Shown here in pieces: positions 3 to 19,975 of a DNA stretch of 64,000 bases (position 1 is the first letter of the stretch; each line of letters starts with the position of its first letter). The stretch is from Amaurobius ferox (lineage: Eukaryota; Arthropoda; Arachnida; Araneae; Amaurobiidae): positions 153,305,178 to 153,369,177 of the forward strand of contig OX578136.1 of assembly GCA_951213105.1 (NCBI GenBank), given 5' to 3'. Made by a program: the position numbers and the translations under genes. Under the pieces are notes generated by a model. That model saw only the letters and a list, made by a program, of their open reading frames with translations. It was not told where the DNA came from and did not search any database.

Positions 3-1487
3 AATCATCGCTGTATAATAGTCCTTTACGGTGAGACTTTTAAAAAATTCAGGTGAAACATTGTTTTCATTTGTTTCACAAAACTCTCGCGCAATTTCTT
101 GAATGTTTATCATTAAAAGTTCGTGATCGACTAGTTCATAATCCACAAATTGCATATGAGTGGATAGCGTACAGCACTTGTGTTTCAAATCGGTACACCC
201 GTGACTTTTACATGTTTCGCGCTGATATAATTTATACAACTCTACACATAAATTTTTATGTACACACTGCATTAAAGTGTGTTTTAATTCATAGGGTGGC
301 AAAGTCGGTAGTGCTTCGACAGGTTTTTGATACTTCACAATACAATTGGGTAGGATATTTGTCAGTAACTGATCCAAAACACATTTAGTAACATCTTGAC
401 TAATGTACTGAAGAGTATGAAAATTATCCTGATTTAATAAGATTAATTTCTTTTTGAACTGTCCAGTGCAAGGTGGTAATTGTTGTAAATATAGATTGCT
501 TTCAAACACACAAACTAAGAGTTCGTTATTAATTGTGAAAGATGAATTTTCACTGTCCATATTTGAAATGCGTTTTAAAAATACACTCCACGTATTAGGC
601 GTGAGTGTTACTCCATGAGGGGTAGGCACGATAACATCAGAAGCATTCATCCTGTAGACACGAAAGTGTACTTTCACATTTCCTCGAAAATGTTGCACGG
701 TAACGTAAATGTTACAGCCCAAATGGTAACGGAACTTTTCAGATGAGGATAATTCTATCGAAACCGATCCATTTTGAGAAGTAGCATAGTTCAGAGCCGA
801 CGACACCAAATCACTTTGCGAATCTGTAGCAGGTATAGATGGAGTATGCATATGGCTCCAATCGATTTCAGGTATAGGCGAAAGCGCTGCAGGCGGGACA
901 TACATTGGAAACTCGCACTTGCGTTTCTGTACAGGCGTTTTAGGTAGAATTTTTCTAAATGTTAGACTTATTCTAGCTTCTGAGACTTCGGGTTCCGCAG
1001 CAATTCCGTGAGAATAGAATTTGTTGGTTGGTGATTGCATCGCATAAAGCGATCCGTGTTGGATTGGAATACTTAGAGGAGATTGTCCTTTTCTTTCGAA
1101 AATGATAGATCTTGTAGCACCGAAACTGAGAGTCGCTATAGGTGTTTTAGAGCATAGGGAGGATTCATTGTCCTTGTGTTGTCCTATTTTAGCATGTCCA
1201 TCCACATAGTGGTTTGCTAACACAAAATTGTAGCTGTATCCCATATGTTCTTCCACACGTGATTTTATCTCCGATAAGAGAGGTGTCCATCCCTCAGAAC
1301 TGTTTCCAGCGTCTCCAAATGTATATGCTTTTTGAGCTGGTTGGTATGGATGACCATGCACCACCCCTTGTGATTGTTGAAAGGGCAGACTTTTCAACTC
1401 TTGAAAAATTAAATCGGCTACATTTACCGAATAAAATTCGCGAACATATTCTACATTCAACTTCTCGCGTTTAAAAAAGATAGACAT
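3..1487 (-). CDS. AlkB (ALKBH2-like) dioxygenase fused to PC4-like ssDNA-binding domain; partial, runs off left edge
   Basis: Reading from an ATG at 1487 toward position 1, 495 codons are open without a stop and the frame leaves the window. Residues ~88-180 match the Fe(II)/2-oxoglutarate AlkB core. An NxYxDG motif (92-97) is followed by the iron ligands H104 and D106, then SFGATR, HGSL, PTN, a distal H160, and the closing ARISLTFRKI whose arginines would bind 2-oxoglutarate. This order is that of ALKBH2/3, which directly reverse alkyl lesions in DNA. After a Pro/Ser-rich linker, residues ~248-311 fit the PC4/p15 fold, with YVTV, FRGNVKVHFR and GVTLTPNTW in the family's order. Residues 312-495 are unrecognised and include a Cys/His cluster near 425-439. 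The gene is divergent from the polymerase at 2198, which suggests one Polinton/adintovirus-like element. I saw no frame break. Domain calls rest on motif reading; I am confident of AlkB and fairly confident of PC4. Confidence 0.85.
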   Translation of the reverse strand, partial: MSIFFKREKLNVEYVREFYSVNVADLIFQELKSLPFQQSQGVVHGHPYQPAQKAYTFGDAGNSSEGWTPLLSEIKSRVEEHMGYSYNFVLANHYVDGHAKIGQHKDNESSLCSKTPIATLSFGATRSIIFERKGQSPLSIPIQHGSLYAMQSPTNKFYSHGIAAEPEVSEARISLTFRKILPKTPVQKRKCEFPMYVPPAALSPIPEIDWSHMHTPSIPATDSQSDLVSSALNYATSQNGSVSIELSSSEKFRYHLGCNIYVTVQHFRGNVKVHFRVYRMNASDVIVPTPHGVTLTPNTWSVFLKRISNMDSENSSFTINNELLVCVFESNLYLQQLPPCTGQFKKKLILLNQDNFHTLQYISQDVTKCVLDQLLTNILPNCIVKYQKPVEALPTLPPYELKHTLMQCVHKNLCVELYKLYQRETCKSHGCTDLKHKCCTLSTHMQFVDYELVDHELLMINIQEIAREFCETNENNVSPEFFKSLTVKDYYTAMI

Positions 1488-2197
1488 TTTTAAAAATAAG
1501 CAAGGACAACCTTCTAGGAGAACAAACGTTGAACGAATGAACTCTTATCTAAATAATATTCCTTATCGTAACATTTCTTATCGCATCACGTGATGTATCA
1601 CATGATATTTCTTATCGTATCACATGACACATCATATCTGTAAATCACATGACACATCACATGATATTTCTTATCGCATCATGTCACATGATATTCCTTA
1701 TCATATCACATGACACATGATATTCCTTATCGTATCACATGACACATCACATGATATTCCTTATCGTATCACGTGATGTATCACGTGACATCTTGTTAGC
1801 GAATCACAAGGTTCCACGTATGGAATCACGTGACATCTTGTTAGCGAATCACAAGGTTCCACGTATGGAATCACGTGACAAACCAGATAAGGTTTCCGCC
1901 CACTATACATGCTACGTGGAGCTCACTTTGACTCGAGACTTGCGCTAGGAAAGACGTGCTTTTAATTTGCTCCTCTCTATTAAAATATCGACAAACGAAT
2001 TTACCACAATGATGGTTGTTTCAAAAGTGAGTTCAAAATGTTTTCGAATTAAAAATAAAGATACATTTTTAAAAATTCATATCCCAATAAATTCTGTTAT
2101 CATTCATAACACAAGAACTTTTAAAATGTACAACACAAAAATTAGCTTCATACACATTTCACTCTTTTACATGTTTTGCGTTTTTAATATTTAGGAT
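1488..2197. promoter_or_regulatory. Shared divergent promoter/leader region with TCACRTGA palindrome array
   Basis: This 710-bp gap separates the starts of the minus-strand AlkB-PC4 gene and the plus-strand polymerase gene. Between 1586 and 1878 it holds 13 copies of the palindrome TCACRTGA (an E-box octamer), interspersed with repeated CTTATCG/TTATCGTA (GATA-like) words. A 45-bp unit occurs twice in tandem (1780-1824 and 1825-1869). The remaining 1.9-2.19 kb is AT-rich. TTTTTAATATTTAG at 2181-2194, just before the ATG at 2198, looks like a splice acceptor, so the polymerase mRNA may have a further 5' exon. A bidirectional control region is inferred from position and motif density. Confidence 0.55.
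1586..1878. repeat. Array of 13 TCACRTGA octamers, last part a 45-bp tandem unit
   Basis: The octamers TCACATGA and TCACGTGA recur 13 times in about 290 bp. The right part is organised as two exact 45-bp units beginning ATCACGTGACATC, plus the start of a third at 1870. Each octamer is a perfect palindrome of the bHLH-zip (USF/MiT/TFE) binding type. Confidence 0.8.
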
Positions 2198-2320
2198 ATG
2201 ACTGTGGAAGCTGCTGCATTGCCTGTGGCACCAACAGTTGTGGAAGCTGGTGTATTGCCTGATGCATTGCCTGTGGCAGCGCCGACCGTGGTGGGAAAGG
2301 CCGGACCTAGTGGTATTCAT
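2198..2320 (+). CDS. First coding exon of the zinc-finger DNA polymerase
   Basis: ATG at 2198 opens 41 codons rich in Ala, Pro and Val with an internal imperfect repeat (APTVVEAG / APTVVGKAG). It ends at a strong donor, CAT|GTAAGT, in phase 0. The acceptor TTTTATAG at 2517-2524 restores frame directly into the first zinc finger (ATA TGT CCC...), which would otherwise lack a start codon and its first cysteine. The 204-bp intron is small for the neighbourhood but plausible. Choice of this exon rests on phase and splice signals; cDNA would decide. Confidence 0.6.
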
Positions 2321-2524
2321 GTAAGTTATTTTATTTCATCTTTTGGAAGGGGAAAATCGGCTGTTTCTGGGAGTATAGGATTGTATTGTATTCTATTACA
2401 GAAACTGTTATTTCTCTTAGAGGAAGTGCAATCAAAGAAAAAAACAGCTGACTCGCGATTTTATAGTGTGTTTTTAGGAATTTTATAGAAAAAAACTAAT
2501 ATGGACATTTTATCTATTTTATAG

Positions 2525-5500
2525 ATATGTCCCACCTGCCACAAGTCTTTTACGCAGAAGAAGAGTTTGACGAGACATTTAAACATCCACACAGGGCTAA
2601 AACCCTTTGTATGTGAAGTCTGCCAGATGGCTTTCACTCGAAAAAGCGACATGGTACGACATGCCAAAATGCATGAAGCAAGTTTAGATTGTGGTGTGTG
2701 TGGTGAAGCGTTTTTGTCCCGAATGGACCTCCTTCGCCACACGAGGCGACACCACAATACTGTACAGCACAAGTGCGAACTGTGTGATGAAGCATTCACA
2801 CGACGCGACGTGCTGTTACAGCATATTCGCCGTGCTCACCCTCACCCTTCCTCCAAGGGCGTGAAACGCAAGACGGCCGATGTTGATAGAATAACAAAGA
2901 AGCGAAACACCCAGGCGATGAGAGCTCTTCGTCGCACACAGCGAGCTTTGGGCGTTTTCACGACCCACACTTTGGAGCCCACCGAGGAGAATCGACAGGA
3001 TCTAACACTGGCGTTAGAAGAGATGCGTGTACCACTGATTGCCTTGTTGAGTGAAGAACTCTCGGCCAATCAGATTAAATGGTACCTGGTCCTCTACGCA
3101 AAGATGGTCCGACTGAATTCTGAGGGGGAGGAAGAGAGCACGACGGCCTACTTTCATAGTAGGTGTGGAATTGACCTGATTTCTCACACGATTGAGCAAC
3201 ATGTGAGTGAGGGGTACCTGAAGATTCAGAGTGCTTTCGAGGACTACCAACAGTTGGGGTCGGGGTGGTCTTTGGATCATGTGATGAAGATGGATGTTTG
3301 CGTGGGCAAGTACAGACCTCTTCGCCCCGCAAGCTATCTGCCCCTGCCCCCAAAACTTGCGGTCAAAAAAGCACTCTTAAATATTGAAAACAGCGACCAG
3401 AAGTGTTTCGTGTGGTGCCTTCTTGCTCACAGACTCAATTTGCAGCGGGCTGAAAAACCCGAACGTGTAGCTCATTATTTGCCTAGGGAGCATGAGATAA
3501 ACCTGGGGAATGTGGAGTGCCCGGTACCCGTGAGTAAGGTTAGTACCCTAGAGAAGCTGAACAACTGCCGGATTAATGTTTTCGGCTATGAGGATGAAGA
3601 AGTGTTTCCTCTGCACGTATCTGCAAGAGACGATGCAGACTGCATTAACCTTCTCCTCATAAGTCAGGATACCCAACAACATTACTGCCTGATCCGCAGT
3701 ATGTCGAGACTTCTGGGGGATTTGACTCAACACGAGCATGCCTTTCACGTATGCTATCGGTGCCTCCACCGCTTCTCCCGAGAAGATTTACTCGTGGCAC
3801 ACACTCCCTACTGCAAAGAGCACGCACCGCAACGTGTTGAGATGCCAAGCCTCGAGAAAAGTTGTTTAAAATTCTCCAATTTGGAGTATCAACACCCGGT
3901 CCCGTTCGTGATATATGCCGACTTTGAGTCGCTTTTGGTAGAAGTGCCCAGCGCACAGCCTAGCGATAGTCGGTCCTTTGTAGAAAAGGTAGCCCATCAT
4001 GAGGCTTGCGGCTACGCATACGTCGTCGTGGGACCCCAAGGCGAATCACACAAGCCCGTGTATTGCTATCGGGGCCCTGACGCCGTAACCCATTTTCTGC
4101 AGAGGATGCTCTTGGAAAGAGACGAACTGGCCGTTCGTTTTAATAGCATAGCACCTATGCGTCTTACCAGGAGTGAAGCACTGGCCTTCAACAGCGCATC
4201 CCACTGCTATCTGTGTAAGAGGGCCTTTGCAAAGGACGGTGACCGGTACATTATGAAGGTTCGCGATCATTGTCACATTGTTGGAAACTATAGGGGTGCA
4301 GCACACTCGAATTGTAATCTTAGATACAAGTTACGCAAGAGTGTCCCTGTAGTGTTTCACAATTTGAAAAACTATGATTCGCACCTCTTAATGTCGGGGC
4401 TTGGAAAGCTGAAAGACCACAGCTTAGAGGTCATTCCACAAAATATGGAGAGATATATCTCCATCTCCCTGTATGAGGGAAAGGAGAGTGTGAGGCTGCA
4501 ATTCATCGATAGCCTTCAATTCATGAATGCTTCCTTGGAGAAGTTAGTGGCCAATTTACCAGCTGATAAATTCAAGATCATGAAGGCAAACATCCCCATC
4601 CATTTTGAGCTGCTGCTTCGCAAGGGAGTGTACCCTTACGAGTATATGAATTCGTTGGCGAAATTCGATGAGCAGGTATTACCTCCACTCTCGGCTTTTT
4701 ATAGCACTCTGACGGATGAGACCCCCACCGCTGACGATTATGCTCATGCTCAGAATGTATGGAGAACATTCAACTTGAAAACATTAGGGGAGTACCACGA
4801 CCTCTACGTTAAAAGTGATGTTCTTCTGTTGGCCGACGTATTTCAGCAGTTTCGACACCTGTGCAGGGAGTACTATGGGTTGGATTGTGTCCACCTGATG
4901 ACAGCACCCGGCTTGGCATGGCAGGCTGCTCTCAAGATGTGCAAGCAGCCCCTCGATCTCATGACAGAGATTGACCAGCATCTCTTCATTGAGCGTGGTA
5001 TCAGGGGTGGCGTGTCTGTCATTACGAAGCGTTTGGCACATGCAAATAATCCTTACATGGCGAAGTATGACCCTGCACAGCCCACCCAGTATATTATGTA
5101 TTTGGATGCTAACAACTTGTACGGGTGGGCTATGTCTCAGCCCCTTCCATATGGAAAGTTTGAGTGGGTGTCACCCACGATTGCGACAGAGGATTGGATC
5201 CTGTCTTGCCCCGACCATGCATCGGTTGGCTACATTTTGGAGGTCGACTTGGAGTACCCGCCAGAACTTCACGATCTCCATAATGATTACCCTGTTGCGC
5301 CAGAAAGAATGTTGATTCGAGAGGAAGATGTCTCGCCGTATACGGTAAAGATCATGGAGGAGCTTGGAGTTCCCCAGTTCCAAGAGCAAGAAAAACTTGT
5401 CCCAAATCTCTGCAACAAGAAAAATTATGTGGTACATTATAGATGCTTGAAAATGTACCTGGAACTGGGGCTGCACGTAACATCTGTGCACAAAGTCCTT

Positions 5501-6169
5501 CGCTTCCATCAGCGGCCCTGGTTGAGATCGTACATCGATTTCAACACCGAGCAGAGGAAGAGGTCTCAATCGGGGTTTGAGAAGGACTTCTTCAAGCTCA
5601 TGAACAACGCCGTATACGGAAAATCAATGGAAAATCTGCGTAACAGAGTTAATGTAGATTTGGTCACCGACACGCGGCGGGGTGAAAAGCTCGTGGCGGC
5701 GCCTACATTCAAGCGCTTCAAAATTTTTGATGAAGACTTGGTTGGGGTTGAGCGGGTGAAGAACTGCATTGTCTTTAATAGACCGATTTACGTTGGATTC
5801 ACCATTCTGGAGCTGAGCAAACTCCATATGTACACATTTCATTATGGCTACATGAAAAAAAACTATGGAGCAAAGGCTGTGTTACTATTCACTGACACTG
5901 ATTCTTTAACCTATGAGGTGCAGTGTCGTGATTTTTATCAGGACATGCAGAAAAACAGCCATCTCTTTGACACCTCTGATTTCCCCGTGAACCATCCGGC
6001 ATTCAGTGGTGTTAATAAAAAGAAGATTGGTTGTTTCAAGGATGAACTGAACGCGCAGCCGGACTTGAGTTCGTGGGGCTCAGGTCTAAAATGTACTCAC
6101 TACTGGCAGTTAGTGGTACAAAAAAGACAGCAAAGGGGGTCTCCCGATCAGTTATCAGTAAGCAACTGA
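2525..6169 (+). CDS. Protein-primed-type family B DNA polymerase of a Polinton/Maverick (adintovirus-like) element, with N-terminal C2H2 fingers
   Basis: Four C2H2 fingers come first (CPTC, CEVC, CGVC and CELC, each followed by paired histidines; ~2528-2850). The DNA_pol_B_2 core follows. Exonuclease motifs are DFE at 3920-3928, NxxxYDSH at ~4363-4383 and YVKSDVLLLAD at ~4805-4840. Polymerase motifs are A (DANNLYG, ~5104-5125), B (LMNNAVYGK, ~5596-5622) and C (DTDS, ~5891-5902). Between exonuclease motifs I and II, CYLC...DHCH...RG...H..CN (~4205-4320) resembles recombination endonuclease VII. Such polymerases replicate linear elements from a terminal-protein primer. Protein length to the stop is ~1255 residues with exon 1. 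The stop at 6167-6169 is premature: the usual C-terminus continues in another frame. Integrase, ATPase and capsid genes are not in the window, so the element presumably extends to the left. Confidence 0.93.
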   Translation: MCPTCHKSFTQKKSLTRHLNIHTGLKPFVCEVCQMAFTRKSDMVRHAKMHEASLDCGVCGEAFLSRMDLLRHTRRHHNTVQHKCELCDEAFTRRDVLLQHIRRAHPHPSSKGVKRKTADVDRITKKRNTQAMRALRRTQRALGVFTTHTLEPTEENRQDLTLALEEMRVPLIALLSEELSANQIKWYLVLYAKMVRLNSEGEEESTTAYFHSRCGIDLISHTIEQHVSEGYLKIQSAFEDYQQLGSGWSLDHVMKMDVCVGKYRPLRPASYLPLPPKLAVKKALLNIENSDQKCFVWCLLAHRLNLQRAEKPERVAHYLPREHEINLGNVECPVPVSKVSTLEKLNNCRINVFGYEDEEVFPLHVSARDDADCINLLLISQDTQQHYCLIRSMSRLLGDLTQHEHAFHVCYRCLHRFSREDLLVAHTPYCKEHAPQRVEMPSLEKSCLKFSNLEYQHPVPFVIYADFESLLVEVPSAQPSDSRSFVEKVAHHEACGYAYVVVGPQGESHKPVYCYRGPDAVTHFLQRMLLERDELAVRFNSIAPMRLTRSEALAFNSASHCYLCKRAFAKDGDRYIMKVRDHCHIVGNYRGAAHSNCNLRYKLRKSVPVVFHNLKNYDSHLLMSGLGKLKDHSLEVIPQNMERYISISLYEGKESVRLQFIDSLQFMNASLEKLVANLPADKFKIMKANIPIHFELLLRKGVYPYEYMNSLAKFDEQVLPPLSAFYSTLTDETPTADDYAHAQNVWRTFNLKTLGEYHDLYVKSDVLLLADVFQQFRHLCREYYGLDCVHLMTAPGLAWQAALKMCKQPLDLMTEIDQHLFIERGIRGGVSVITKRLAHANNPYMAKYDPAQPTQYIMYLDANNLYGWAMSQPLPYGKFEWVSPTIATEDWILSCPDHASVGYILEVDLEYPPELHDLHNDYPVAPERMLIREEDVSPYTVKIMEELGVPQFQEQEKLVPNLCNKKNYVVHYRCLKMYLELGLHVTSVHKVLRFHQRPWLRSYIDFNTEQRKRSQSGFEKDFFKLMNNAVYGKSMENLRNRVNVDLVTDTRRGEKLVAAPTFKRFKIFDEDLVGVERVKNCIVFNRPIYVGFTILELSKLHMYTFHYGYMKKNYGAKAVLLFTDTDSLTYEVQCRDFYQDMQKNSHLFDTSDFPVNHPAFSGVNKKKIGCFKDELNAQPDLSSWGSGLKCTHYWQLVVQKRQQRGSPDQLSVSN

Positions 6170-7210: not shown

Positions 7211-9534
7211 ATTTAAATTAATAAAAAAACCATTTCAGACTGGTGGGGAACGCTGCCCTTAAAGAGCGTAGTGACAGGGTGTGACACCTCATGGGGCTGT
7301 TGGAATCACACAAACTTTTTCTTCTTCTTCTACTAACATTTTCCCACTTTTTCTAACACTTTTCTCTTATATAATATGTAACAGTTCTTAATAACACATA
7401 TTTTCTAATGGAAACTTTCTTTTCAGATTGCGAGTAGCTTGTCGCATCATTTTTTTTTTTTTTTTTTGAAAATGCCTAAGTACAATGTAGTAATACATTA
7501 ATTTTTAAACCATTACAAGGGATCAATCTTGTTGACTTAACACAATTTTATCTAATGCGTTTAAATTTTAAAACTTAGAAATATATAATGTATACATTTG
7601 TATTTAGATACACAACACATAAAAGGGTTGAATCCTATTCATTGAACACAATTTATGTGTCCACTGAACACAATTTTTGTGTGTCCACTGAACACAATTT
7701 TTGTATGTCCACTGAACACAATTTTTGTGTGTTCATCGGAAATCCATAATCTATTATATTTTTAAACATTTGAAATCATTTCGTTATTATTATAAAAATC
7801 GTATTGATAGTTAGATTTATTTTTTAAAAAATCACACACACACACACACACACACTTAGAATGGTGAAATCTTGTTCACTTCATTTTAATTAAATGCGCT
7901 ATTTTAAAGTTTGTGTATACATTTGATTATAGATACACAACACTTGAAAGGGTCGAATCCTGTTCACAAAACATAATTTGTGTGTTCATTGAACACAATT
8001 TTAGCTATGTATTACATTCATGTTTTTAAAGTTTGTGTATACATTTGTTTTTAGATACACAACACATAAAGGGTTGAATCGTATTCATGTAACACCATTT
8101 TTGTGTCCACTGAACACAATGTGTGTTTTATTTTTTAAAAATATTGTGTTTTTAGTGAATCAAACATAAACACTTTAAAGGATTTTTACAGCCTCGTTTG
8201 GTATACATGGAAAAACTTTATTTTTCAGGTTTTAAATATGCCACTTGGTTTTTAGACATACTCAAAACCACATGCTGTTGAAAAACTTTATTTTTCAGAT
8301 TGGATTACAATGGTAAGGTTTTATCTATTCTAACATAGACTTCATATTTGGAACTCGTGAGTCTTATCATTTCTTATCAAATGTTTGAGAAAGAGAGTGC
8401 TGATATTGACCATAGCAATCGTTATCTGGGTGTTTGGACGATTATTGTAAATGCTCGCTTGGACGATTCTCGTTCATTGGAATATATATTGTGAGAACCA
8501 AACTTGCAATAGATTTTAAAAGTGTTTGTGTCAGGGAAAAATAATGTACACTCACTTCTAAGTTCTATCATGGTAGTAAAATTACAATGTTAAAATGGTG
8601 ATATCATATTCATTGGGTTTTATTTAAACTGAATGCTAAAATTTATGGGGGTGAAAATTCGTTAGTTTGTTAAATTCTAAACTTCGATATTTCAATTACA
8701 TCCGCCATTTTAAAAAAAAAAAAATGGCCGAATCATATTCGATGCACAATATCATTAAAGTGATGTGTTTTAGATTACGTGTAGCAAATCAGACCGTTGA
8801 AGTATCCAACTATTAAAAATATATTATTAGAAAAAATAGGTGGCAACACCTCATACTGGTGATGATAAGATCTAATTTTTAATAGCGTAATGAGAGTGTC
8901 TCACTCATTTGGAGTTTGACCAGCGGGTAGTGAAGAGGTCGTTCTGTGAGTTCTAATTTTCATTATTATTTTTCTATACTGTTAGATTTATTTTTCAAAA
9001 ATCACACTTAGAATGGTCAAATCGTGTTCACAAAACATAATTTCAGCTATGTATTACATTCGTGTTTTTAAAGTTTGTGTATACATTTGTTTTTAGATAC
9101 ACAACACATAAAAGGGTTGAATCCTATTCATTGAACACAATTTATGTGTCCACTGAACACAATTTGTGTGTCCACTGAACACAATTTTTGTGTTCATCCG
9201 TAATCAATTTGTGTGTTCATTGGAAATCCGTAATCAATTTGTTTTTAAACATTCGAAATCATTTCGTTATTATTATAAAAATCGTATTGATTTATTTTTA
9301 AAAAAAAAATCCACTGAATACAATTTTAGCTAATTATTACATTCGTGTTTTTAAAGTTTGTGTATACATTTGTTTTAAAAAAAAAATCATATTGTTATAA
9401 TATACATATTTATATTCACTCCGTAACATTCTGTTTTAAAACGCACCCTTGCATCGCTATTCGAATGAACTTTGAAAAATAATCTAACTTCCACTGATAA
9501 GGTACACTTCGAAGTTAACTGCCTATAAAGCACG
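7211..9534. other. AT-rich non-coding stretch with recurring 'CCACTGAACACAATTT' blocks
   Basis: No gene was found. A block containing AGATACACAACACATAAA, GGGTTGAATCCTATTCATTG and repeated GTCCACTGAACACAATTT occurs near 7605-7740, 7930-8130 and 9090-9200. This indicates local duplication of a ~500-1000-bp segment. An (AC)n microsatellite lies at 7838-7855 and poly-T at 7450-7467. Several TTTTTCAG acceptor-like words (~7420, 8225, 8298) are not attached to recognisable exons. Whether this is the right part of the Polinton or flanking DNA cannot be told. Confidence 0.5.
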
Positions 9535-9643
9535 GGTGCTTTGGCACGATGGTAAGACGCGCGACTTCTAATCAGTTGGACCCAAGATCGAATCCAGCTC
9601 CTGACAAGTGAAACATTAATTTCTTTTGGAAAAAAAAAAAAAA
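9535..9643 (+). mobile_element. tRNA-Arg(TCT)-like sequence with A-tail: tRNA pseudogene or short tRNA-derived SINE
   Basis: GGTGCTTTGGCACGATGGTA resembles an A box (TGGCNNNATGG). CTTCTAATC resembles the anticodon loop of tRNA-Arg(TCT), and AGATCGAATCC resembles a B box, all correctly spaced over ~70 bp. The acceptor and T stems do not pair well, so a working tRNA is unlikely. About 30 bp later there is a run of 13 A (9630-9643), which suggests retroposition. No clear target-site duplication was found. Confidence 0.5.
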
Positions 9644-9649
9644 TGCCGA

Positions 9650-10265
9650 TAGATGGCAGCACTTCATCAAAATTCGCCAGAGGGCGCTTTAACTACATCC
9701 TGCTGATAAGATCTTTCACTCTGTCGCTGACCAGCAGAGAGGGAGGACGTGTGCTAAGGAGCTCTTGTCAAAGGTCACTTCTAAGGTTATCAATCGCGAC
9801 ACGTCATTTCCAGATTGTGTGATGCTCAGTCATCGATTGCGACATCCCTTGAAACTTCTTCCTCAGGTCAAGGGTCAGTCGCTGATTGCGAAATCCCTTG
9901 AAACCACTTCCTCAGGTCAGCGATTGTGACATTCCCTCTCAAGAGTGAAACTCACTCCGTATGAGTCATCATGCCTCTCTGAAAGACTTCGCAATTGCCC
10001 TCTTCCGAAAGAGGCATCCGGTGCTGCACCGCCTCACCAAACTTCCAAAAGAGGGGAGGGGGGCATTCTAAAGAGGATCCTCTCAAGAGAGGCATCCTCC
10101 CTCCTGGGGGTCTCAAGACCCTCTGAGAGGAGCTTCCTCTCAAAAGAGGGAAGACACTCCAAAGAGGCATCCTCCCAAAGAGGATCCTCCCAAAGAGGGA
10201 CCCTCCTCCCAAAGAGGGCCTCCTCTGGCACCGCACGGCACCGCCTCCCCGATCCGCCGCAGAAC
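9650..10265. repeat. Non-coding region ending in CTCCCAAAGAGG tandem repeats
   Basis: Between ~9760 and 9930 the phrase TC(A/G)xCGATTGCGACATCCCTTGAAAC recurs about three times. From ~10040 to 10220 a 15-25-bp unit around CCTCCCAAAGAGG is repeated. It gives an open frame on the plus strand only because of the repeat; composition (Ser/Arg/Glu repeats) does not look like a protein. Confidence 0.6.
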
Positions 10266-10289
10266 CGGCCTTTTATAACTACTCAGGTA

Positions 10290-17044: not shown

Positions 17045-19975
<2,931 letters not shown>

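Follow-up and report, generated by a model that had tools for sequence, protein, structure and literature searches.

A probable multi-segment Polinton encoding an AlkB-PC4 fusion protein in the genome of the spider Amaurobius ferox

Polintons, or Mavericks, are believed to lie near the root of many eukaryotic DNA viruses, and accounts of them portray single elements. Here we report on a 64-kb stretch of the genome of the spider Amaurobius ferox (C5:153305178-153369177, contig OX578136.1; hereafter the window), which holds most of a Polinton-type element, designated A, that encodes a family B DNA polymerase (PolB) and a protein joining an AlkB-type dioxygenase to a PC4-like single-stranded DNA (ssDNA)-binding domain and a C-terminal region X. 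Elsewhere in the same genome (3.56 Gb in 276 contigs) two further element types, B and C, carry ends of the same kind and other genes, and we propose that A is one segment of a Polinton whose functions are probably divided among separately inserted parts.

Vertebrate Mavericks possess an (AGT)2//(ACT)2 end motif and perfect 6-bp duplications, according to excerpts of PMC8097293. The spider elements resemble Polintons as portrayed there in PolB, an integrase with rve and chromodomain, a packaging ATPase, terminal inverted repeats, end motif, 6-bp duplications and similar size, whereas they differ in that intact Polintons carry all core genes on one element, here split over separate insertions, and in the added AlkB-PC4-X or PC4-X genes. 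Adintoviruses, in the excerpts of PMC11071296 and PMC8363768, are likewise animal-associated and encode PolB, rve-chromodomain integrase, an FtsK/HerA-type ATPase and a capsid set (of which we have candidates), but occur as single contigs with PolB and integrase together. They are, moreover, defined by an OTU-like N-terminus of PolB, whereas the spider PolB carries C2H2 fingers there and matched no OTU family in searches that used Pfam only, with no profile-profile comparison. Bidnaviruses, including Drosophila Vesanto virus, are presented in the same excerpts (PMC8363768, PMC11071296) as segmented DNA viruses with an adintovirus-type PolB and putative segments bearing similar terminal inverted repeats; unlike them, with their parvovirus-type NS1 and VP, the spider elements have an integrase, Polinton-type genes and insertion with 6-bp duplications, and Pfam scans of two A and eight B proteins yielded no NS1 helicase or parvovirus capsid family. 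The AlkB and PC4 portions share catalytic core, ligands and sequence similarity with ALKBH2, ALKBH3 and human PC4 (PDB 3rzl, 8jnr, 1pcf), but here form one mobile-element-encoded protein with an extra conserved C-terminal region. In the open-licence literature, as far as its excerpts extend, we found no description of a split Polinton or of an AlkB-PC4 fusion, and nothing that pairs a Polinton with PC4, an adintovirus with AlkB, or a transposon with an AlkB and PC4 fusion. The excerpts of PMC11258239, on fungal N6-methyladenine (6mA), mention AlkB and Polinton unrelatedly, and multipartite or segmented wording in those of PMC12567637 and PMC12220804 refers to other viruses or to networks and not to Polintons.

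Complementary gene sets on elements with shared ends

By end search, element A of the window spans 12,989 bp, from C5:153302472 to 153315460 (window -2705 to 10283). Its Maverick-type ends, AGTAGT...ACTACT, are flanked on both sides by CAGGTA, and the sequence left of position 1, whose recovery the original prediction had proposed, was found to contain the inverted repeat and the left element end, matching window 8981-10283 in inverted orientation at 98.7% over 1.3 kb. The long inverted repeats, end motif and 6-bp duplications bear out the Polinton character suggested from the window alone; the description as a Polinton/adintovirus-like element needs amendment in that A is one of at least three types that divide the Polinton genes, with no integrase or capsid gene found on it. 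This split was missed originally because the relevant sequence lies outside the window. Only two genes were recognised on the window's element A, AlkB-PC4-X and PolB, and these are indeed divergent, as had been claimed (Table 1). Inspection by eye of open reading frames (ORFs) of at least 70 aa in the left part and at least 150 aa in the window revealed no integrase or capsid gene, and in tblastn searches with ten A and B proteins the B proteins were absent from the A left flank and from the corresponding A stretch on C20, the PC4-X relation excepted.

PolB was found on A only and matched DNA_pol_B_2 in Pfam (E value 3.7e-18); its closest named relatives are spider proteins at 52-53%, followed by cnidarian and mollusc ones. 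In the window its frame is broken in the last few hundred bases, and the commonest frame, of 1,293 codons, occurs at 71 of the 116 places scored (the best of 5868 candidates in the genome), with a stop within the match in six of those 71. Upstream of the frame, at window 2010-2525, short open stretches with GT...AG borders were seen by eye and suggest that PolB is spliced. The IMG/VR database gave one Polinton-like-virus contig for the PolB query (13.7 of 15.1 kb examined), with no AlkB in its ORF list or in the Pfam matches of seven ORFs, and no match for query protein P0001, the B integrase or the candidate major capsid protein (MCP) of B. Tandem and inverted arrangements of A were also observed: at C20:61528578-61556221 three A genes lie head-to-tail at a spacing of 7,390-7,391 bp, and this 27.6-kb array is surrounded by a single 6-bp duplication, TCTGTC, as if a concatemer had been inserted, and inverted A-gene pairs with starts 1.9-4.1 kb apart (C11:19.35, C5:125.44, C16:41.73 and C11:75.23 Mb) suggest palindromic forms.

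The missing Polinton functions are found on type B. The B element at C20:94.15-94.17 Mb has terminal repeats 94.8-98.0% identical to those of A in long matches and the duplication ATTAAG. On B only we found an integrase (rve 1.4e-11, Chromo 1.6e-8 in Pfam; transposase-type matches in PHROGs/NCBIfam) and a packaging ATPase (Pox_A32 2.7e-7, Adeno_IVa2 2.5e-5; weak matches in PHROGs/NCBIfam), together with candidates for a capsid protein (435 aa) and a penton protein (270 aa), small proteins and a PC4-X protein of 350 aa that lacks AlkB and matches residues 252-495 of the AlkB fusion (24%, 2.7e-14). A tblastn search of this element with a spider relative found no PolB. In a second B copy, at C11:85.06 Mb, the other B genes are 98.1-100% identical, PC4-X excepted (figures taken outside the MCP stretch), and no A gene was found apart from the PC4-X relation. 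Capsid-candidate and integrase genes of B also form a tandem array at C19:13.765-13.92 Mb, where listed capsid copies lie 14.1-15.6 kb apart.

Type C is represented by five end pairs spanning 12-13.5 kb (C10:58.8, C20:42.7, C12:36.9, C23:70.0 and C19:135.3 Mb). In each of them the central 6-8.7 kb that were read hold two copies, inverted to one another, of a third PC4-X paralogue with a frame of 383 codons. None of the ten A and B proteins matched these five centres by tblastn except as PC4-X relatives. Identity between the arms reaches 99.94% (3,221 bp) in one element and 99.74% in another, and one of the five is partly degraded. Together with the element at C2:189.7 Mb, in which a single PC4-X copy was seen (4.7 of 9.7 kb read), the palindromic form accounts for five of six C elements read. 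This typing leaves aside the interiors of a 6.2-kb pair on C22 and three 7.7-kb pairs; at two single-end places (C15:11.0 and C14:79.0 Mb, 3.1 kb each) neither a match nor an ORF of at least 80 aa was found.

The gene sets of A and B are not only complementary but also unlinked in the copies examined. Among the best-scoring candidates for each gene (86 of 3136 for the AlkB fusion, 97 of 2719 for the MCP candidate, 119 integrase places from the best 117 of 11838, and the PolB places given above), no AlkB copy had a listed MCP (0/86) or integrase (0/86) within 20 kb, and no PolB place a listed integrase or MCP within 15 kb (0/116). Within each set the partners are close: a listed integrase lies no more than 3 kb from 88 of the 97 MCP copies, and a listed PolB no more than 7 kb from 62 of the 86 AlkB copies, the rest of which may have lower-scoring partners. 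The core Polinton genes were thus never found together on one element among the copies listed, so that no part makes up a whole Polinton by itself.

What unites the three types is their ends. Terminal inverted repeats with AG/(AGT)2 ends occur on A, B and C, and perfect 6-bp duplications surround all seven elements in which both ends were read intact (two A, two B, three C); these are six pairs from the end search plus the C20:61.5-Mb array, after three pairs with one truncated end were dropped and with four pairs (C23:70.0, C22:108.9, C19:135.3 and C2:189.7 Mb) left out. Over the whole stretch compared (1,800 bp), window 8484-10283 and an end of the C10:58.8-Mb C element are identical, with no mismatch, whereas both ends of the B element on C20 agree with it at 94.8-95.7%, so that the right repeat of A is closer to a C end than to its own left repeat (98.7%). 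The end variants ACCGGCC and ACCCCCAATT likewise occur on A as well as B. In a tree of 23 of the 24 ends the A, B and C labels change nine times, as compared with a mean of 11.1 after shuffling (nine or fewer in 10% of shuffles), which for this small sample is no significant grouping of ends by segment type. These data show terminal exchange between segment types.

The AlkB-PC4-X protein and its PC4-X family

The gene that drew attention to the locus is confirmed as a genuine AlkB-PC4-X fusion. Its 495 codons in the window are uninterrupted and run off the left edge, and in three other genomic copies that were translated the stop follows five codons later, giving 500 aa, in line with the original proposal that AlkB, PC4 and extension share one frame. 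Both domain assignments also held: Pfam placed 2OG-FeII_Oxy_2 at residues 62-178 (2.7e-19) and PC4 at residues 256-305 (6.5e-7), each over the curated cut-off, and the nearest solved relatives among PDB sequences are ALKBH2 (1.1e-24), ALKBH3 (1e-17) and human PC4 (3e-5). PHROGs and NCBIfam scans matched AlkB weakly. All five metal and 2-oxoglutarate ligands are in place (H104, D106 and H160 for iron; R172 and R178), following the ALKBH2/3 pattern of HxD...H plus two arginines. At least 97% identity over residues 1-495 was seen in 86 of 86 scored copies, only four of which have an internal stop, and a chance or misread frame is ruled out by this agreement and by the domain matches. A host ALKBH gene with introns is ruled out as well, because the frame is unbroken, the near-identical copies are many and the gene lies within the terminal repeats beside PolB.

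In a large protein database two AlkB-only proteins and no fusion were found, and the PC4-X piece had no relatives; both negatives are weak, as ALKBH2-type proteins matching the PDB were absent too. In P0003, a 605-aa protein from that search, weak PHD and GDSL matches flank an AlkB domain; judging by resemblance, a long interspersed nuclear element (LINE) or another genomic parasite may here have captured AlkB a second time.

The C-terminal extension matched no Pfam family over about 187 residues, as the original prediction had it, yet it is not unique to this protein: relatives occur elsewhere in the same genome, and it forms the second half of the PC4-X proteins on all three types read. In a low-confidence predicted model (mean pLDDT, the predicted local distance difference test, 36.9) X is mostly helical. 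Each type has its own PC4-X paralogue; those of A, B and C are 22-30% identical, with invariant positions through the PC4 domain and through a C-terminal region with conserved cysteines and histidines. The C protein matched the PC4 family at 0.002, under the cut-off, and the B protein had no Pfam match alone, its link to PC4 being by alignment to A and C and by a joint profile; adding the B sequence improved the match to human PC4 from 3e-5 to 1.1e-6. In the elements read, PC4-X sits on the left side with its 3' end facing the terminal repeat, about 2.7 kb (A), 3.1 kb (B) and 4.9 kb (C) from the element end. AlkB-PC4-X is the form carried by the proposed replication segment of a protein family that every element type read encodes.

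The two B copies (C20:94.15 and C11:85.07 Mb) differ strongly in the core of this gene. For 2.6 kb, ending near codon 86 of PC4-X, they are 98.6% identical; within the core of about 0.9 kb, identity falls to about 65% where the copies can be aligned, and it returns to 94.4% from the last codons on; at the protein level the first 80 aligned residues are all identical, and 30-column blocks of the core with at least 18 aligned residues range from 27 to 63%. Because these borders are sharp and lie between otherwise near-identical copies, the PC4-X core appears to behave like an exchanged or hypervariable cassette in the two copies compared. In the bolder reading set out below, an exchanged core of this kind may confer specificity, either for the ends of segments or in countering silencing by the host.

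To assess selection, 28 copies of the A gene were read (eight from the first search and 20 of the 86), of which 25 were distinct and 24 were compared with the window's copy. Private changes number 16 synonymous and 42 nonsynonymous, 1.06 of the neutral ratio, and among changes shared by at least two copies 24 are synonymous and 26 nonsynonymous (0.44 of neutral, p 0.004), in counts uncorrected for relatedness. The pattern fits neutral drift after insertion combined with purifying selection on the gene as a whole during spread. Private changes average about 0.16% per copy, and the spread is therefore recent; at the arthropod rate of a few changes per billion per site and year it would be younger than about a million years.

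With regard to function, the domain content and the signs of purifying selection make strand cleaning by AlkB-PC4 plausible. We regard coating of ssDNA by PC4 coupled with cleaning of bases by AlkB, during strand-displacement copying, as the likeliest role, a prediction in which we place about as much trust as doubt. The main alternative, that the AlkB part does not repair damage but counters silencing by erasing methyl marks that the host has placed on the element's DNA or RNA, or acts on transcripts, is in our judgement a doubtful but serious one: a range of methylated bases in DNA and RNA are substrates of ALKBH relatives and fusion to an ssDNA-binding domain fits either substrate, but ALKBH2 and ALKBH3, the nearest relatives of solved structure, are repair enzymes for alkylated DNA. 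The fusion clearly predicts a displaced-strand repair or demethylation activity built into the replicon.

A proposed multi-segment Polinton and its alternatives

We consider these observations to be best explained by a multi-segment Polinton of at least two and probably three parts that would share functions in trans, and give this reading a probability of about 0.72. Segment A would supply replication, with PolB and the AlkB-PC4-X protein; segment B integrase, packaging ATPase and capsid-type proteins; and segment C, which may be a satellite, another PC4-X only. Since the terminal repeats are interchangeable, polymerase, integrase and capsid could serve all segments: one PolB would copy them by protein priming, one integrase would insert them and one capsid would package them. 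PC4-X would coat displaced single strands or segment ends, and where single strands lie exposed the AlkB part on A would clear them of N1-methyladenine and N3-methylcytosine, or of a methyl mark made by the host. That functions are shared in trans, that segments are packaged and that the enzyme is active is inferred here. A bolder version, to which we give even odds, is that of a multipartite Polinton virus, probably of an arthropod, with separately packaged and integrating segments whose ends are interchangeable. A would hold the replication genes and B those for integration and the capsid, with a fast-diversifying left-side PC4-X of its own on each segment, an AlkB eraser on A and a PC4-X core swapped between B segments. 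If true, the split Polinton would be a natural case of a DNA virus turning multipartite, a step otherwise inferred for bidnaviruses, and as a single genome holds many recent copies, the exchange of ends, the types of segment and their ages are open to direct study.

Several points weigh against the multi-segment reading. Without a listed AlkB copy within 7 kb are 54 of the 116 PolB places, and without a listed integrase within 3 kb are nine of the 97 MCP copies. The genome searches score the best candidates only, so that an older or rarer complete element could exist, and many ends were gathered by likeness to the window's end, which favours alike ends. The nearest A and B neighbours, one pair on C2, lie 18-26 kb apart; judged from positions alone, they are probably two neighbouring insertions. 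On the side of the capsid, the MCP and penton candidates matched nothing in Pfam, their labels being based on resemblance and gene order; the model of the 435-aa protein (mean pLDDT 31.4) is too poor for use; no protease gene was recognised on B; and in the second B copy both the penton gene and the 144-aa gene are spread over two frames. On C, PC4-X is the one gene that could be recognised, and the segments are known here from integrated genomic copies alone.

One alternative is that a complete monopartite Polinton gave rise by deletion to A and C, and perhaps to B, and provides the functions that they lack, comparable to the situation of defective interfering genomes or non-autonomous transposons. 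Among protein-primed viruses, defective genomes are known in panhandle or deletion forms, which the palindromic C elements and the head-to-head pairs of A resemble, and the copy counts reflect best-scoring candidates only. We nevertheless find this unlikely, since no complete element appeared among the 116 PolB, 97 MCP and 119 integrase places listed, the genes of A and B each occur in many near-identical and mostly stop-free copies, and the A gene appears to have been under selection while spreading. Still less probable is that two families of independent origin met in this genome, one a PolB/AlkB transposon and the other a Polinton that bears capsid genes and has its polymerase elsewhere, and that by recombination they swapped ends and nothing else, without depending on each other. 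End exchange is directly visible, and identities of only 22-30% among the PC4-X proteins imply that the segments may long have been distinct; against this, A and B each lack the other's genes, neither would be expected to manage both its copying and its insertion unaided, and both show 6-bp duplications of the Polinton integrase type, though no integrase was found on A. That AlkB is a captured passenger without function, as its absence from the PC4-X proteins of B and C might suggest, is most improbable given that all ligands are kept, that a stop occurs in 4/86 copies only and that shared changes are depleted in nonsynonymous ones (over the whole gene rather than the AlkB part alone).

Other features of the window

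Positions of the features of element A in the window are collected in Table 1.

Table 1. Features of element A located in the window (positions in nucleotides from its first letter).
Feature	Position	Strand	Basis or remark
AlkB-PC4-X fusion gene	3..1487	-	495 codons in window, 500 in total, last 5 left of position 1
AlkB (ALKBH2/3-like) dioxygenase part, residues ~1-182	942..1487	-	H104, D106, H160, R172, R178 present
PC4-like ssDNA-binding domain, residues ~254-312	552..728	-	Pfam and PDB sequence matches, joint profile
C-terminal X region, residues 313-500, conserved Cys/His	3..551	-	common to PC4-X proteins of types B and C; cut by window edge
Direct repeats in divergent region between AlkB-PC4-X and PolB	1553..1880		
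Family B DNA polymerase, organellar/viral, predicted protein-primed type, N-terminal C2H2 fingers	2567..6169	+	exonuclease and polymerase motifs
Right terminal repeat region	7367..10283		outer 8981-10283 is an inverted match (98.7%) to left end, 2.7 kb outside window
6-bp target duplication CAGGTA	10284..10289		other copy at C5:153302466-153302471

No tRNA gene was found within the 64-kb window. Beside the element, in the left flank (positions 2410-3473 of the flank sequence), lie open frames that resemble a DDE transposase of the pogo/Tigger type. On the other side, at window 17071-17501, an 84-bp tandem repeat is present in 5.1 copies and possibly encodes C2H2 zinc fingers.
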